From positions 1 through 44,053 of the forward strand of contig CAISIU010000112.1 in assembly GCA_903885505.1 (NCBI GenBank): a DNA stretch of 44,053 bases, read 5' to 3'. Positions 1,562 through 40,600 of this stretch are shown in pieces (position 1 is the stretch's first letter; every line of letters begins with the position of its first letter). The stretch is from an uncultured Actinomycetes bacterium. Lineage in GTDB: Bacteria > Actinomycetota > Acidimicrobiia > Acidimicrobiales > RAAP-2. Position numbers and translations under genes: made by a program. Under the pieces are notes generated by a model. That model was given only the letters and a program-made list of their open reading frames with translations, was not told the DNA's origin and did not search any database.

Positions 1562-3438
1562 CGCGTCACGTCCGACGACACGCCCGCGGCCACCTTGACG
1601 CCACTGCGGAAAGTGCCCGACAAGGGAACGCCGTAGTGGCGAAGTGCATAACTCATTACCCGCTGAAAGACGGGAGCAGCCGCATCGCCACCGAAAATGC
1701 TGGTGGTGGGGCGCTGTAGCAACACAATCATTGACAAGGTGGGGTGGTCGGCGGGAGCAAATCCGACGAAGGACGCGTTGTACGCCCCATTGACGTAGGC
1801 CGCCACGCCCGGTCGCGGCATCGCGGCCGTTCCCGTCTTGCCGGCCACCGCGTAGCCCGGGATGATCGCCTTGAGACCGGTGCCGACTCGCACCACGTCT
1901 TGGAGCATGTTGTTCAAAGTCTGCGCCACGGTAGGCGAAAAAACTCGATACGACAGCGACTGAGGCGAGGGAGTCGGAACGCCCGTGGAGCTGATGGTGG
2001 CTCGTACCAAGGTGGGCTCGATGAAGACTCCCCCATTGGCGATGCAGTTGTACGCGTCGAGCACCTGAATAGGCGTGACCGCATCGACTTGGCCAATCGG
2101 AAGCGACGCCATGTCCGAGTTGTGCCAACTCGACTGACCCACCAGTAGGCCGGCACTTTCTCCCGGAAAGTTAACGCTCGTGGTCGCCCCAAACCCAAGT
2201 CGATTGACCTGGTTCAACAAATTGCTCTCCCCCACCTGCTTTGAAATCAGGTAGGTGCCAATGTTCGATGAGGCCGCGAGAATTTGAGTGGCGTTCAAGT
2301 GAAGGGTTCCGTGACGCTCCGCATCGTGAAAGACGCGGGTGCCGACGACCACTGAATACGGGACGGTGTACGGCGTCGTGGGCGTGGTGGTGCCGAGCGA
2401 AATGGCCGCGGAGAAGGGCACAATCTTGAAGACCGAGCCGGGCTCGTACGTCATCGTGAAGGGAAGGTTGTTAATGGACTGCTGGATGCCGGGAACTCCG
2501 ACGTCCACCCCCCACGTAGTGGGCGACGGCAAGCGTGAGTCCTTCACTCGTGTGTTGACGAGTGACGCGTCAGCCAGAATCTGGCCGGTACGCACGTCCA
2601 TCACGATGGCGACGCCATCAAGAGCACGCATCGTCCGCAGCTGATTTGCGAGGGCTTGCTCGGTGATGTACTGCAGTGGAGTGTCGATGGTTAGCTCCAC
2701 CGAGGAGCCCGGTACCGCGCGCTGAACGGTCTGCACCTTGGAGCCCGGCAAGTTGACGTTGTCGTGACGCATGGAAATACCGATGCCGGTCTGTCCACCG
2801 AGGAGAGACTGAAACTTGTACTCGAGCCCTGCGTACCCCTCTTGATTGGTCAAATTGCTGACCGAGGAGATTCCCGTCAGACCGACAGAGTGAACGCCAC
2901 CGAGCAAACTGTGCGCGAGCTCACCATTGGGATAAACGCGAGCAGAGCCTCGCTGCACCAAGATGCCAGGCAAATTGGCCTTCGTCAACTTGTCGCCGTC
3001 GTCGAGGGACAGGCCGTTGGTGATCAGGGTGTGACCCGATCCGTAGTGAATGGTGAGAAGGGGAACGAGCTTGTCCACCGGCACGTGCACAAGGGGCGAC
3101 AAGGCCTGCGCTTCGGCCAAGGGAGTTGTCTTTTGAGCGATTTGGATGTCGTCCGCCCACACCTCATCGGTCGGGGCCGACAGCGCGAGGGGCACGGCAT
3201 TGCGGTCGTACAGGGTCCCACGATCTGCCGGAATCGCGAACTTACTGTGGAACTGCTTGTAGCTCAACGTGGCGTACGTGGAGTGGCGGTAGATCTGAAT
3301 CCACGCCAGGTTCAGCACCACGACGACCCCAAAGATCAACGCCGCGTTGCGCATCAACGTCACGCGGTGCTCAAAGTGCGTGGCGTTATCGCGAACGAAA
3401 TCGCGATTCTTCGCGGAACGGCGGACGCTGCGGCTCAT
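1558..3438 (-). CDS. ftsI: Septal class B penicillin-binding protein (FtsI/PBP3)
   Basis: Monofunctional transpeptidase of 626 aa that cross-links septal peptidoglycan during division, working with FtsW and the FtsQLB complex. It has one N-terminal membrane segment (about 30-48) after a basic cytoplasmic tail, a PBP dimerisation region starting around RGTLYDRN (73-80), and a C-terminal transpeptidase domain. The three active-site motifs are present: SVFK (335-338, preceded by YEPG), SSN (390-392) and KTGT (534-537). It overlaps the ftsL-like gene upstream and murE downstream by ATGA, so translation is probably coupled across all three. The intact motifs support an active, beta-lactam-binding enzyme. 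Confidence 0.96.
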   Translation of the reverse strand: MSRSVRRSAKNRDFVRDNATHFEHRVTLMRNAALIFGVVVVLNLAWIQIYRHSTYATLSYKQFHSKFAIPADRGTLYDRNAVPLALSAPTDEVWADDIQIAQKTTPLAEAQALSPLVHVPVDKLVPLLTIHYGSGHTLITNGLSLDDGDKLTKANLPGILVQRGSARVYPNGELAHSLLGGVHSVGLTGISSVSNLTNQEGYAGLEYKFQSLLGGQTGIGISMRHDNVNLPGSKVQTVQRAVPGSSVELTIDTPLQYITEQALANQLRTMRALDGVAIVMDVRTGQILADASLVNTRVKDSRLPSPTTWGVDVGVPGIQQSINNLPFTMTYEPGSVFKIVPFSAAISLGTTTPTTPYTVPYSVVVGTRVFHDAERHGTLHLNATQILAASSNIGTYLISKQVGESNLLNQVNRLGFGATTSVNFPGESAGLLVGQSSWHNSDMASLPIGQVDAVTPIQVLDAYNCIANGGVFIEPTLVRATISSTGVPTPSPQSLSYRVFSPTVAQTLNNMLQDVVRVGTGLKAIIPGYAVAGKTGTAAMPRPGVAAYVNGAYNASFVGFAPADHPTLSMIVLLQRPTTSIFGGDAAAPVFQRVMSYALRHYGVPLSGTFRSGVKVAAGVSSDVTR

Positions 3439-3977
3439 TTCTGCGCGTGAGAAACCGTGGTCGCGACATCAGTCGCTGACGAGTGAGTAGTCGTCGTCAC
3501 GGGCGCCGACACGTAGCCGGGCACGTGGGAGTCCTGGAGGACTCGCGAGATGGCGTAGCCGCCGCGCACATGGGGCACCGCCACGGGAACATCGAGCGAA
3601 ACGCGGAGAATCTGAGACACCGATGTCGGCACCACCAAATTCGAGCCGCCAACCTTGGATGCCAAGTGCTCGGGGCTCGCGTTCTTGGTGATCTGGGATA
3701 CCGCCGCGGCGTACTGCGACTGTGCGGTGAGCAATTGGTCCTGCACGTGAGCCAAGGCAACCTGGCGCGTATCGATGGACTGGACGACGAACATCGCGGC
3801 CACCGCTCCGACGGCCGTGATGACGACCAGCTGTCCCGTCCAGCTCAGACGAGCCCAGAGACGAAAGCCGGCGGTCCCGCGGTGAGAGACCGTGGAACGA
3901 CGCGGTGCAGTCGCGACCCGCGGACGAAAGACGCCGTGGTCACCATGGTCGCGGAAGGGAAAGGAAATGACGCTCAC
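3435..3977 (-). CDS. FtsL-like cell-division membrane protein
   Basis: 180 aa protein with a basic, Arg-rich cytoplasmic N-terminus, one transmembrane segment (about 47-66), then a short heptad-like region (about 70-100, VALAHVQDQLLTAQSQYA) that could form a coiled coil, and a Thr/Ser-rich tail. This bitopic layout and the position between rsmH and ftsI match FtsL, the poorly conserved division protein that pairs with FtsB/DivIC and FtsQ/DivIB. The sequence itself does not prove the identity; position and topology carry the call. It overlaps rsmH and ftsI by ATGA at both ends. The extracytoplasmic part is longer than in most FtsL proteins. Confidence 0.75.
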   Translation of the reverse strand: MSVISFPFRDHGDHGVFRPRVATAPRRSTVSHRGTAGFRLWARLSWTGQLVVITAVGAVAAMFVVQSIDTRQVALAHVQDQLLTAQSQYAAAVSQITKNASPEHLASKVGGSNLVVPTSVSQILRVSLDVPVAVPHVRGGYAISRVLQDSHVPGYVSAPVTTTTHSSATDVATTVSHAQK

Positions 3978-5053
3978 GCGAGCTCCTTCAGTCGAGCGAT
4001 ACGCAAACGTGCCGAACGAGCGCGAGGGTTGCGTTCCACCTCATCCGACGACGCCAGAATGGCGCCGTGGCGCGTGACCTCTAGGGTCGAGATGGCCCCG
4101 CACACGCACGGCAGCTGCGGGGGGCAGGTGCACCCACCCGATTCGCCCTCGAGCATGAACTTCTTGACGACCTTGTCCTCGCCCGAGTGATAGCTCATCA
4201 CGACAAGAACGCCACCAGGGGCAAGAAGTGAGATGGCGGCGTCGAGACCTTCGCGCAGTTGTGCTTCCTCGTCATTCACGACGACGCGCAGCGCCTGAAA
4301 GACGCGAGTGGCCACGTGGCCACGGCGGCGAGCAGCCGCTGGCACCGCTCGCTCGACGGCCGATACCAACTCTGAGGTTGTGGTCGGCAGCGCCGCGATG
4401 ACGGAGCGAGCAATCGCGCCGGCGAAACGAGATTCGCCGTGTTCGCGAAAGAGGTCGGCGAGTTCGTACACGTCGGCCGACGCGATGTACTGAGCGGCAG
4501 TCTCGCCCTGGGTGGTGTCCATACGCATGTCGAGAGGGGCGTCGTAGCGAAAGGAGAAACCACGGCTCCCGTCATCGAGCTGCGGCGATGACACGCCCAG
4601 GTCCATCAACACGCCGCGAATCGGCACGTCGTGAGTGAGCGGACGAACCAAAGTGGCCATGGAGGCAAAGTCGCCCGCCACGACGGTCGAACGATCGCCA
4701 TAGGGGGCAAGGCGACGTCGTGCCGCCTCGCGAGCAATGGGATCGCGGTCAATGCCAATGATCCGCACCTGGGGGTAGCGCTCCAGCAGAAGGGCGCTGT
4801 GCCCTGCCCCACCCAACGTGGCGTCAACGATGATGCCGTCCTCGACGGCCATCGCGTTCACCACTTCAGCGGCGAGAACGGGTTCGTGTACGAAGTCCTG
4901 GGTCATCTGCAGCCCTTCGACCAACGTCACCGAGTGGGGGCTCGGAGCGACACCCAACGGCAGGGCGGAGGAGAAATCACCGTTGGGGTTGGTCGGAAGG
5001 CTGCGCATGGTCCAGGGCCAGCGCTTTACACGGGAGTGGGCATCACCTTTCAT
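3974..5053 (-). CDS. rsmH: 16S rRNA C1402 N4-methyltransferase RsmH
   Basis: SAM-dependent methyltransferase that N4-methylates C1402 of 16S rRNA. From residue 50 it reads MTQDFVHEPVLAAEVV, then the SAM site DATLGGAGHS, the IGIDRDP block, LMDLGVSSPQLD, GFSFRYDAPLDMRMD and VMSYHSGEDKVVK, all typical of RsmH. Two starts are possible. The ATG at 5053 gives 359 aa and overlaps the mraZ stop as ATGA, like the other junctions of this operon; the extra 49 codons have no stop and mostly G/C third positions. The ATG at 4906 gives the common 310 aa length and has GAAGG 7 nt upstream. Mycobacterial RsmH also carries an N-terminal extension, so I list the long form, but the start is open. Confidence 0.95.
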   Translation of the reverse strand: MKGDAHSRVKRWPWTMRSLPTNPNGDFSSALPLGVAPSPHSVTLVEGLQMTQDFVHEPVLAAEVVNAMAVEDGIIVDATLGGAGHSALLLERYPQVRIIGIDRDPIAREAARRRLAPYGDRSTVVAGDFASMATLVRPLTHDVPIRGVLMDLGVSSPQLDDGSRGFSFRYDAPLDMRMDTTQGETAAQYIASADVYELADLFREHGESRFAGAIARSVIAALPTTTSELVSAVERAVPAAARRRGHVATRVFQALRVVVNDEEAQLREGLDAAISLLAPGGVLVVMSYHSGEDKVVKKFMLEGESGGCTCPPQLPCVCGAISTLEVTRHGAILASSDEVERNPRARSARLRIARLKELA

Positions 5054-33265: not shown

Positions 33266-33348
33266 GCGGGCGTGGCGAAATGGCAGACGCGCTGGGTTTA
33301 GGTCCCAGTTTTCGAAAGGAAGTGGAGGTTCAAGTCCTCTCGCCCGCA
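33266..33348 (+). tRNA. tRNA-Leu (anticodon UAG)
   Basis: Class II tRNA with a long variable arm: acceptor GCGGGCG/CGCCCGC, D arm, anticodon stem CTGGG/CCCAG around TTTAGGT, variable stem TTTCGAAAGGAAG region and T arm GGAGGTTCAAGTCCTC. Discriminator A at 33348; the 3' CCA is not encoded (CTC follows). It reads CUA and probably other CUN codons. Confidence 0.97.
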
Positions 33349-33388
33349 CTCTCATCGCCATCCATGGCGCTCTTTCAGTGAGCAAAAT

Positions 33389-33449
33389 CTCTCACCTTCA
33401 AGTACAAAAGTCCCGCAATATTGCGCGGCAAACACTCATGACGTGAGAG
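33389..33449 (+). other. Inverted repeats between tRNA-Leu and the helicase gene
   Basis: CTCTCAC (33389-33395) pairs with GTGAGAG (33443-33449) across a 47-nt interval whose centre holds the perfect palindrome CGCAATATTGCG (33414-33425). No T-run follows closely, so it is not a standard terminator. It may end the tRNA transcript or be part of helicase control. Confidence 0.4.
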
Positions 33450-33468
33450 TTTTCAATTCACCCCTTGT

Positions 33469-33526
33469 TTTTTGCACAGGCCCTGGTGTAAAGTTGAACC
33501 TTGCTGTACATCGGTGCAAATTGCAC
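33469..33526 (+). promoter_or_regulatory. Candidate helicase promoter and 5' leader hairpin
   Basis: TTGTTT and TAAAGT (from 33492) with 18 bp between them form a plausible promoter, giving a leader of roughly 80 nt. This leader contains the perfect 13-nt inverted repeat GTGCAA-A-TTGCAC (33514-33526). Most nearby genes appear leaderless, so this structured leader is unusual here and may serve temperature or autogenous control. Confidence 0.45.
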
Positions 33527-33585
33527 TGGAGTTTAGATTCGTCCTCAGGTTGGTCGAGTTTGAACTCATGACCACCAGGAGAATC

Positions 33586-35544
33586 ATGACCACGTCATTT
33601 CGTGACTTGGGCGTCCCCACGCCTCTCGTCGAACGCCTTGAAGCCAGCGGCATCAAGTCCCCCTTTCCGATTCAGGAAGCCACGCTGCCTGACGCTCTCG
33701 CCGGACGCGACGTCGTCGGCCGCGCCCCGACCGGATCGGGCAAGACGCTCGCCTTCGGTCTGGCGCTGCTCGCTCGCACCGGACGCTCCGAGCCGTACCA
33801 GCCCCAGGGCCTGGTGTTGGTGCCGACCCGCGAGCTGGCTGCTCAGGTTCAGCAAGAGCTCGCGACCTTGACTGCCGACCGCGGTCGTCGCATCATCACC
33901 ATTTACGGTGGCACCTCGTACACCAAGGCGCGCAAGTCCCTGGCCGAAGGCGTCGACATCGTCGTGGCCTGCCCGGGCCGTCTTGAGGACATCTTGCGCC
34001 AGGACGAGATCGACTTGTCCAACGTCAAGACCGTCGTCGTCGACGAAGCGGACCGTATGGCCGACATGGGCTTCTTGCCCGCCGTCCAGCGCATCATCGC
34101 ACTGACCGAGGAAAACCGTCAGGTGATGCTGTTCTCGGCCACCTTCGAAAACGAAGTTCGTTCCTTGGTGGGCCAGTTCACCGCCAACCCCATCCGCCAC
34201 GACGTGGCGTCGGACTCCGAGCCGACCGACGTGGACCACTTCTTCTGGAAGGTGGGCAAGGAGGAGCGCATTTCCAGCGTCGTGGACGTGGTCAAGGAGC
34301 ACGGCCGCGCCGTGATTTTCTGTCGCACCAAGTTTGGTGTCGACCGTTTGGCGTTCCAGCTGTCCGGCAAGGGTGTCCGTGCTGTTCCACTGCACGGCGA
34401 CCGCTCGCAGGCGCAGCGCGAAGCAGCGCTTCGCCAAGTCATCAAGGGTGAGGCGGACGTTCTCGTCGCCACTGACGTGGCTGCTCGCGGCATTCACATC
34501 GAAGAACTCCCCTGCGTGATTCACTACGACCCGCCGCAGGTCGCCTCGGACTACGTGCACCGCTCGGGTCGAACCGGCCGTGCCGGTGAGACCGGTGTGG
34601 TTATCTCCCTCGTCGCCGCCGACACCGTCGGCAAGATGAAGAAGATCATGCGCGAAGTGGGACTTCCGCCCATCATTGGTACCCGCGAGGAAGCTGAAGG
34701 CCTTCGTCTGCAGCCGAAGCAAGAAGACTCGCGTCCCCTCGTTGGCAAGGCCAACAAGCCCGAGCCGGCCGCGCTGAGCGACCTCGAAGGCCCGTTCTGT
34801 TACGACACTCCCCCGGCGGGAGCTCGTCGTGACGGCGACCGACGCGAGCGCTCACCGCGACGTGACGACTGGACCCCACGCGATTCGCGTCGTGGACCTC
34901 GTGACGATCGTCGTGGACCTCGTGATGACCGCCCCTCGCACCGCGATGACCGTCGTCCGGCACGCGACGGAGATCGTCCGGCATTCCGCGATGACCGTCG
35001 TCCCGCCCGCGAGGGAGAGCGTCCGGCATTCCGCGACGAGCGCCCGTCGTTCCGTGAGGACCGTCGTCCCGCCCGTGACGGAGACCGTCCCGCATTCCGT
35101 GAGGACCGTCCCGCATTCCGTGAGGACCGTCCCTCGTTCCGCGAGGAGCGTCCGTCGTTCCGCGATGACCGTCGTCCCGCCCGTGATGGCGAGCGTCCGC
35201 AATTCCGCGACGAGCGCAGCGACTCACGTCCGACCGCCACGGTGACTTTCTTTAACGAACTCAAGGGATATGGCTTTGCCACCCGCGAAAGCGGCGAAGA
35301 AGTCTTCATCCACTTTTCTCAGGTGATGGGCAACGACGGCCGCGTGCTGTCGAAGGGCCAGACCGTGGCGCTTGACGTCGTGTCGGGCCCCAAGGGTCTC
35401 GAAGGGCACAACGTGCGCGTTCAGGGTGGCTTTCGCCCTCAGGGTGGCGGTAGTGGATCTGGTCGTCGCCCCGAGGGTGCCGGTCGTCGCCCCGACAGCC
35501 GTCGTCCGGGTGCCAGTGACCGCAAGCCCCGCCGCAAGTACTAA
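33586..35544 (+). CDS. DEAD-box RNA helicase with C-terminal cold-shock domain
   Basis: 652 aa. Helicase core: Q motif with Q30, motif I APTGSGKT (47-54), PTRELA (80-85), DEAD (153-156), SAT (184-186), VLVATDVAARGI, and HRSGRTGRAGE. A linker at about 415-546 is almost entirely Arg, Asp, Glu, Pro and Phe, with repeated DRRPARDGDRPAFRD-like units. Residues about 550-616 form a cold-shock (CspA-like) OB fold: TVTFFNELKGYGFAT (RNP1) and EEVFIHF (RNP2), ending GPKGLEGHNVRV. A Gly/Arg/Pro tail follows. It probably unwinds structured RNA, with the cold-shock domain holding single strands, as in cold adaptation or ribosome assembly. The ATG at 33586 follows AGGAGAATC; an in-frame extension to 33472 lacks support. 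Confidence 0.93.
   Translation: MTTSFRDLGVPTPLVERLEASGIKSPFPIQEATLPDALAGRDVVGRAPTGSGKTLAFGLALLARTGRSEPYQPQGLVLVPTRELAAQVQQELATLTADRGRRIITIYGGTSYTKARKSLAEGVDIVVACPGRLEDILRQDEIDLSNVKTVVVDEADRMADMGFLPAVQRIIALTEENRQVMLFSATFENEVRSLVGQFTANPIRHDVASDSEPTDVDHFFWKVGKEERISSVVDVVKEHGRAVIFCRTKFGVDRLAFQLSGKGVRAVPLHGDRSQAQREAALRQVIKGEADVLVATDVAARGIHIEELPCVIHYDPPQVASDYVHRSGRTGRAGETGVVISLVAADTVGKMKKIMREVGLPPIIGTREEAEGLRLQPKQEDSRPLVGKANKPEPAALSDLEGPFCYDTPPAGARRDGDRRERSPRRDDWTPRDSRRGPRDDRRGPRDDRPSHRDDRRPARDGDRPAFRDDRRPAREGERPAFRDERPSFREDRRPARDGDRPAFREDRPAFREDRPSFREERPSFRDDRRPARDGERPQFRDERSDSRPTATVTFFNELKGYGFATRESGEEVFIHFSQVMGNDGRVLSKGQTVALDVVSGPKGLEGHNVRVQGGFRPQGGGSGSGRRPEGAGRRPDSRRPGASDRKPRRKY
34870..35220 (+). 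repeat. Degenerate in-gene tandem repeats coding the Arg/Asp-rich linker
   Basis: The helicase linker DNA repeats units of 45 nt or shorter; the block coding DRRPAR[D/E]G[D/E]RP occurs four times and [R/E]DRPAFRE-like units several more. CGTCGTCCCGCCCG recurs almost unchanged. Both strands stay open over this stretch, an effect of the repeats. Copy number is likely to vary between strains. Confidence 0.85.
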
Positions 35545-40244: not shown

Positions 40245-40590
40245 GGGGGTGATCGGTTTCGACGTTGGTCGTCAAAGTAAGAGAAGCGAGCCGTGGTCGC
40301 CGGATCCACGTTAAAGAGTCGGTACAAAAAATAAACGCCAAGCCTCAGCTTGCGCTCGCTGCCTAGGCAGCGACGTTCACCTAGTTCCAGCCCTACGAAC
40401 TAATACTGAACGCCATATAAGTAGGACTTACCGAATGACTGCTCCCGCCGGTCAATCGGGACACTCAAGTGGGATACGGGTTGATCAGAGAGTCCACGAT
40501 CAGATCACCCCCGACAATTTCTCGTGGACTGCGCTCGGAGAAGACTTATAGAGAAGCTGACGGACGCGGGTTCGATTCCCGCCACCTCCA
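40245..40590 (+). ncRNA. ssrA: Transfer-messenger RNA (tmRNA)
   Basis: 346 nt. The 5' end GGGGGUGAUCGGUUUCGAC pairs with the 3' CACCUCC (one G-U), followed by discriminator A; the terminal CCA is not encoded. The T arm GCGGGTTCGATTCCCGC is intact. The tag frame runs 40322-40363 and ends in the protease signal LALAA before UAG (40364-40366): VQKINAKPQLALAA, with the first codon uncertain. Pairs of complementary segments after the tag are consistent with the usual pseudoknots. It rescues stalled ribosomes with SmpB. Candidate -10 boxes TACACT and GATAAT lie at 40220-40231. Confidence 0.97.
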
Positions 40591-40600
40591 CCTTTCGGCT

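Follow-up and report, generated by a model that had tools for sequence, protein, structure and literature searches.

The DEAD-box helicases DbpA, Hera, CshA and CsdA carry C-terminal tails that bind RNA or mediate dimerisation, and tails of the DbpA type work by specificity. Co-operation between such helicases and cold-shock proteins (Csp) in RNA remodelling has been reported with separate proteins. Bacillus subtilis CshA and CshB are reported to interact with Csp proteins (PMC4846089, citing Hunger et al. 2006), and Arabidopsis AtRH7 interacts with AtCSP3, again as separate proteins (PMC4846089). Cold-shock domains (CSDs) fused to other prokaryotic proteins are already in print (PMC11090510, PMC12458937). 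CoCoNuT McrB/McrC homologues and TPR-CSD proteins have a CSD joined to a larger protein, as in the gene described here, but their partners are a restriction-system GTPase, McrC-type or TPR proteins, whereas the partner here is a DEAD-box RNA helicase. We found no description of a bacterial DEAD-CSD fusion in the open-licence literature as far as its text is accessible; the architecture may still be recorded in protein databases with no accompanying publication.

The window, by which we mean the whole 44,053-nucleotide stretch that was analysed, comes from an uncultured member of the Acidimicrobiia and encodes a fusion of a DEAD-box RNA helicase, a linker and a CSD on its forward strand (33586..35544). 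An uninterrupted frame of 652 codons runs from an ATG at 33586 to a TAA ending at 35544, behind a Shine-Dalgarno sequence, AGGAG (33577..33581, +), that is kept in relatives. Together with orthologous fusions in other genomes, this single open frame confirms a genuine, inherited DEAD-Helicase_C-CSD fusion. The first-pass annotation had described a complete DEAD-box core, a linker and a CSD in one frame, and Pfam bears this out: DEAD occupies residues 28-192 (159 bits), Helicase_C residues 231-334 (98 bits) and CSD residues 550-611 (52 bits against a cut-off of 27), all three above their cut-offs, with no other RNA-binding domain listed by Pfam in the fusion protein.

The helicase core (residues 1-358; 33586..34659, +), delimited by the Pfam DEAD and Helicase_C matches, invariant columns and the predicted fold, contains motif I (TGSGKT, 49-54), DEAD (153-156), SAT (184-186) and HRSGRTGR (325-332). 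Across alignment A1, which holds 24 fusions chosen from 33 intact ones, the Q motif, motif I, DEAD, SAT and HRxGRxGR are invariant, and Pfam finds all three domains in every sequence (24/24). These motifs point to a DEAD-box RNA helicase, for which ATP-dependent unwinding is predicted. AlphaFold2, given 17 related sequences, modelled the core and the CSD mostly at pLDDT >90, and the best Foldseek matches to the predicted core include CshA (5ivl), Hera (4kbf) and DbpA (7pli). DbpA, Hera, CshA and CsdA thus resemble the fusion in their helicase core and in the idea of an accessory RNA-binding tail; they differ in that the tail in the window is a CSD and that the Pfam list includes no DbpA-type RNA-binding domain. 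The best 25 of 51 matching NCBIfam models all scored below their own cut-offs, and the models for DbpA (335 bits against 524; its C-terminal RRM-like domain is absent from the Pfam list), the CshA equivalog (325 against 646) and CsdA (287 against 890) fell short of theirs. The same genome, a 1.66 Mb draft in 165 contigs that is 94.6% complete, encodes a second DEAD-box RNA helicase-like protein, which is unfused (L060).

We assign residues 550-611 (35233..35418, +) to the CSD family on the Pfam score above cut-off, the presence of both RNP1 and RNP2 (KGYGF and VFIHF, read from the sequence) and an AlphaFold2 model with five strands between residues 550 and 612, mostly at pLDDT >90; the earlier claim of a complete domain with both RNP motifs therefore stands. 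The RNP core residues G561, G563, F564, F574 and H576 are invariant in the 24 aligned fusions. Bacterial Csp proteins (CspLA, CspB, CspA) match the window CSD in profile, in both RNP motifs and in the modelled barrel strands; they are free-standing, however, and solved Csp proteins have W in the first strand where the tethered window CSD has F. A loop Phe present in the relatives' CSDs is also missing from the window CSD in the 24-sequence alignment. Of the two CSDs in the genome, one belongs to a free-standing Csp that scores 91 bits; the other, inside the fusion, is divergent and scores 57. A basic Gly/Arg tail, recognised by alignment and AlphaFold2, follows the CSD (residues 617-652; 35434..35541, +); residues 617-649 are predicted to be disordered (pLDDT <50). 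Most of the 24 relatives in the alignment have a far shorter tail.

The more surprising extra beside the fusion may be the unlisted RNA that precedes it. A covariance model identified a conserved structured leader of 84 positions at 33502..33585 (+; model match 33502-33587), a candidate RNA family associated with a single gene. Identity with a known Rfam family was rejected: Rfam 15 gave no match in the leader at the gathering cut-off and none up to E 5 in 33340-33660. Stem I (33512..33528, +; 33512-33517 with 33523-33528) covaries across relatives, and helix II (33529..33567, +) comprises 13 consecutive window pairs counted by eye (33529-33541 with 33555-33567). Helix II excludes the hairpin that, in the window's minimum-energy fold, covers the Shine-Dalgarno sequence. 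Alignment A4 (28 leaders, plain MAFFT) has 98.8% of cells paired in stem I with three pairs changed on both sides, 99.3% paired in helix II with no pair so changed, and 89.8% paired, with one pair changed on both sides, in the alternative Shine-Dalgarno-proximal hairpin, which also uses CGAGUUG. Helix II shows little variation in A4, and further pair types were no more numerous there than in shuffles (453 of 500 as high for stem I/helix II, 487 of 500 for the alternative hairpin), though the other four measures exceeded nearly all shuffles. When 45 leaders were fitted to model R1 (A6), 7 of 17 pairs, including three of helix II, had both partners changed, and 98.7% of cells paired against 35-46% in slid controls; since A6 was fitted to R1, its covariation leans to the R1 structure. 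A promoter scan found no promoter before the gene and read the window's stem I as terminator-like; by eye, a candidate -10 element lies near 33489-33494.

R1, which finds the window leader at 26.7 bits, matched at E <1e-4 in 32 of 37 same-genus genomes, 20 of which had given a leader to the model and 12 of which had not; one genome was missed by the strict filters (G000), and four others showed no R1 match (G015, G018, G022, G035). None of these 32 matches is more than 10 nt away from the helicase match. A second copy occurs in G016 only, at a contig end, and looks like an assembly overlap; weaker R1 matches elsewhere in the genus genomes reach E 3.5e-4 at best. With R2 the leader is the only match in its own genome and is found in 9 of 10 further same-genus genomes, the exception being G126, which is fused. 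Taking the two models together, 42 of 47 same-genus genomes have the leader immediately adjoining the gene. Over 73 sources, R2 gave five matches at E <1e-4 (window, L071, L048, L069, L205), of which only L205 had been held out. Two of these precede unfused orthologues: L048, which had contributed to the model, and L205, where the match (E 6e-6) sits at the start of the helicase. The leader thus accompanies the helicase and not the CSD. R2 detected no leader before the distant fusions L053, L121, L180, L182, L183, L186, L189 and L199, nor before the same-genus fusion L193.

We put at roughly 60% the probability that the single-gene fusion works by strand trapping, its tethered CSD acting as the tails of DbpA and Hera do, and that the folded leader through which it is expressed most simply provides feedback by RNA-remodelling activity. 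The helicase core would melt short RNA duplexes using ATP, the CSD would bind the exposed single strand by way of its flexible linker, and once bound it would hold the helicase on the substrate and delay re-annealing. The CSD would replace both the RNA-binding tails of DbpA, Hera and CsdA and the helicase-Csp partnership of B. subtilis, in which CshA/CshB and Csp bring the same two activities from separate genes rather than in one polypeptide. Against the tether stand the divergent window CSD and the free Csp that the same genome retains. Strand trapping, feedback and any cold role are what we infer for the fusion, and a cold role of the protein is unproven. As a natural covalent fusion it is a Rosetta-stone case, making helicase-Csp co-operation testable at a fixed 1:1 stoichiometry.

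Feedback through a leader has a precedent in RNase E, which is reported to autoregulate via its own 5′ leader (PMC3997798); there too the gene of an RNA-processing enzyme lies behind a structured leader, the feedback at the present locus being hypothetical. The 22 leaders compared with shuffles fold more stably (mean z -2.2), and Shine-Dalgarno occlusion was lower than in shuffles in 12 of them, with a mean access of 0.33 against 0.29. Across temperature, in calculations on 30 of 31 leaders with no pseudoknots and no protein, mean predicted access went from 0.35 at 4 °C to 0.38 at 37 °C, and the largest change in one leader was 0.18. A simple thermometer or constant occlusion of the Shine-Dalgarno sequence is thus not supported by folding. 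Because the Shine-Dalgarno sequence is not extra hidden and its access hardly depends on temperature, we claim a conserved structured leader and not a proven switch. More speculatively, and with the odds well against it, the leader could be a riboregulator that has two states and is sensed by the helicase-Csp protein itself, whose remodelling activity would set the prevailing state. The strand CGAGUUGG would pair either with upstream CCGAUUCG or with downstream CAACUCG beside the Shine-Dalgarno sequence. If this were true, it would constitute a new autoregulatory RNA family with RNA-chaperoning activity as its ligand, kept with the fusion and also found ahead of unfused orthologues.

The leader also bears on the alternative that survives best, in which the CSD is a specificity domain for one RNA, such as ribosomal RNA or the gene's own leader, and does not trap strands in general. 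The leader, being conserved and tied to the gene, is a candidate for such an RNA, the precedent of DbpA-type tails fits, and a C-terminal signature with the consensus GPKGREARNVRV is common to the fused CSDs in the main branch. However, the leader also stands ahead of unfused L048 and L205, and none could be detected in G126, which is fused, so the coupling between leader and CSD is not strict. CSDs are moreover described as having limited sequence specificity (PMC12787238). On balance we regard a specificity role as unlikely.

The linker (residues 378-545; 34717..35220, +), defined by composition, repeats and the AlphaFold2 model, is rich in Arg, Asp, Glu and Pro with spaced Phe and is encoded by imperfect tandem repeats of 21, 42, 45 and 66 nt. 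The first-pass annotation's view that it is disordered was upheld as a prediction, with pLDDT <50 throughout residues 378-545 (AlphaFold2). Its description as some 130 residues of almost only R, D, E, P and F holds, by eye, for the last 110-130 residues but not for the whole 174-residue stretch between core and CSD, which, cut from 15 residues past the end of the core profile, is 27% Arg, 25% Asp/Glu, 14% Pro and 5% Phe. The same annotation saw in the mixed charge and regular Phe the composition of a disordered segment that can condense with RNA; on such a reading the linker would form RNA condensates and the CSD would add a further RNA sticker. Besides the predicted disorder, two comparisons agree with that. 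The linkers of 51 main-clade fusions (means of 24% Arg, 18% Asp/Glu and 2.8% Phe) exceed the tails of 68 unfused orthologues (19%, 7% and 0.7%) in Asp/Glu, total charge and Phe, with p-values that are uncorrected for relatedness and overstate the difference because the sequences are related. In the window and L014, none of 200 shuffles mixes the linker charges as well. Yet mixing is unexceptional in L029, L042 and L193, where 24, 47 and 167 of 200 shuffles were as low, and the same-genus L042 and L193 keep the CSD behind short linkers of 47 and 56 residues that have neither the Arg/Asp-type make-up nor the spaced Phe. Since such a linker is not constant in the genus, condensation cannot explain the fusion in general and was rejected in that role; in the main branch it may contribute, and overall we hold it to be distinctly improbable. 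The CSD appears from these alignments to be the constant part, the linker varying in length and make-up, and its retention while the linker changes points to tethering as the selected feature.

The architecture recurs, which counts in favour of strand trapping by a tethered CSD. Most other orthologues fetched are unfused, and every number given for fusions beyond the genus is a minimum, drawn from searches of Actinomycetota. The best 80 named relatives, of which L080 is the closest by E-value, comprise 13 fused, 4 truncated, 5 with a csp gene in their flanks and 58 with neither; these loci overlap in species with the genome set, and the L062 core is that of another locus. Other families of the class contribute further fusions (L053, L172, L180, L182, L183, L186, L189 and L199), besides L121 among the named relatives. 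Among CSD matches in long frames, 6 of 20 regions in the class were DEAD fusions (L180, L182, L183, L186, L189 and the same-genus L193), as was 1 of 6 in the phylum search (L199, same order). All 10 other fusions scanned, L071 included, passed the Pfam cut-offs for the three domains.

A helicase-core tree was built by a quick method with SH-aLRT support only. Its 157 candidate rows fell to 104 when near-copies were dropped and to 99 after removal of six viral loci and L040 and addition of the family-level rows L207 and L208; duplicate loci of one place (L002, L154, L163, L171, L206, L004) were left out of the tree and the linker counts. With 21 fused and 72 unfused rows (6 truncated ones uncounted), the tree requires seven changes of the fused state, of which starred branches force at least four, and a single clade for all fusions, a test named after the tree was seen, is rejected (p-AU 0.0001). 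Within the class the fusion has been acquired or lost on several occasions, the change counts being neutral between gain and loss; on an earlier tree unfused L205 adjoined fused L071, which may reflect a loss. The first-pass annotation did not regard the fusion as a standard architecture; no paper found describes it, but it is no one-off, as it recurs in distant branches of the tree. A viral origin was rejected: the eight IMG/VR relatives are only 29-43% identical, and none was seen fused (L144 and L148 are incomplete). None of 550 plasmid records covered 80% of the query.

Neighbouring csp genes and fusions that keep a csp-like start codon are possible intermediates beside the recurrent fusion. 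A csp gene lies within about 4 kb, in the fetched flanks, of 5 of 67 non-fused named loci (4 of the 67 being truncated), against 0.24-0.41 expected by chance at an assumed 0.6-1.0 csp per Mb, a density chosen after looking at the data. Because three of the five fall in one small clade, the signal is nearer three independent cases (chance 0.002-0.008). In L119, csp (3979-4219) immediately precedes an unfused orthologue and shares its strand, having been part of the match that fetched the locus, and in L172 a free-standing csp (1479-1692) follows a helicase gene already carrying a fused CSD. A viral contig collection holds a locus (L145) with csp (768-969) and a DEAD-box gene (2172-3510) about 1.2 kb apart. 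In the distant fusions L182, L186, L189 (ATG) and L183 (GTG), the CSD opens with a start codon that follows a stretch of the AGGAG or AAGGAG type, as would be expected if a downstream csp had been joined by loss of a stop codon. A free Csp might also be made from this internal start in the four loci. Production of both helicase and free Csp, the latter started inside the gene, is very improbable as an account of the present locus: the four distant starts favour it, but the window has no start codon with a Shine-Dalgarno sequence at the beginning of its CSD.

Within its genus the fusion is the rule. An intact fused orthologue occurs in 33 of 37 same-genus genomes, with no intact unfused orthologue in the 37 among the matches listed. 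The four others are G015 (a fragment cut by the contig, whose single frame runs from the helicase end through the linker to the CSD), G022 (a piece at a contig end that has just the linker and CSD), G004 (cut ahead of the expected CSD position) and G018 (75% complete; no orthologue among the matches listed). All 10 further same-genus genomes are fused, among the matches listed. One of the 33, L040 (G023:C78), has an N-terminus like that of the genus' second DEAD-box protein (cf. L059) and may have arisen by recombination or be a chimera of the assembly. Of five genomes from other genera of the family, four (G162, G173, G280, G326) carry a candidate orthologue that is unfused, and no clear orthologue was seen in the fifth (G106). 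An assembly or frameshift artefact, a refutation that the first-pass annotation had named and for which the draft state of the genome (165 contigs) could speak, can be dismissed with near certainty, because the DEAD-linker-CSD order recurs in one frame in many other assemblies, with matching neighbours as well in 6 of 11 loci compared.

The full neighbour set in those 6 fused loci consists of a transport permease (by eye) and genes with the Pfam names ClpP, FKBP, Lon-N, Ham1 and RNase PH. L080 has the upstream part of the set before its contig ends, and none of the set was found in L069, L070, L071 and L072, of which L069 and L072 are short; the fusion has thus been retained even where these neighbours have not. 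A tRNA-Leu(TAG) gene (33266..33349, +) is the upstream neighbour in the window; it is common to the main branch and was present in 8 of 18 loci scanned. Farther downstream the window also carries a tmRNA gene (40245-40592) with the tag AKPQLALAA.
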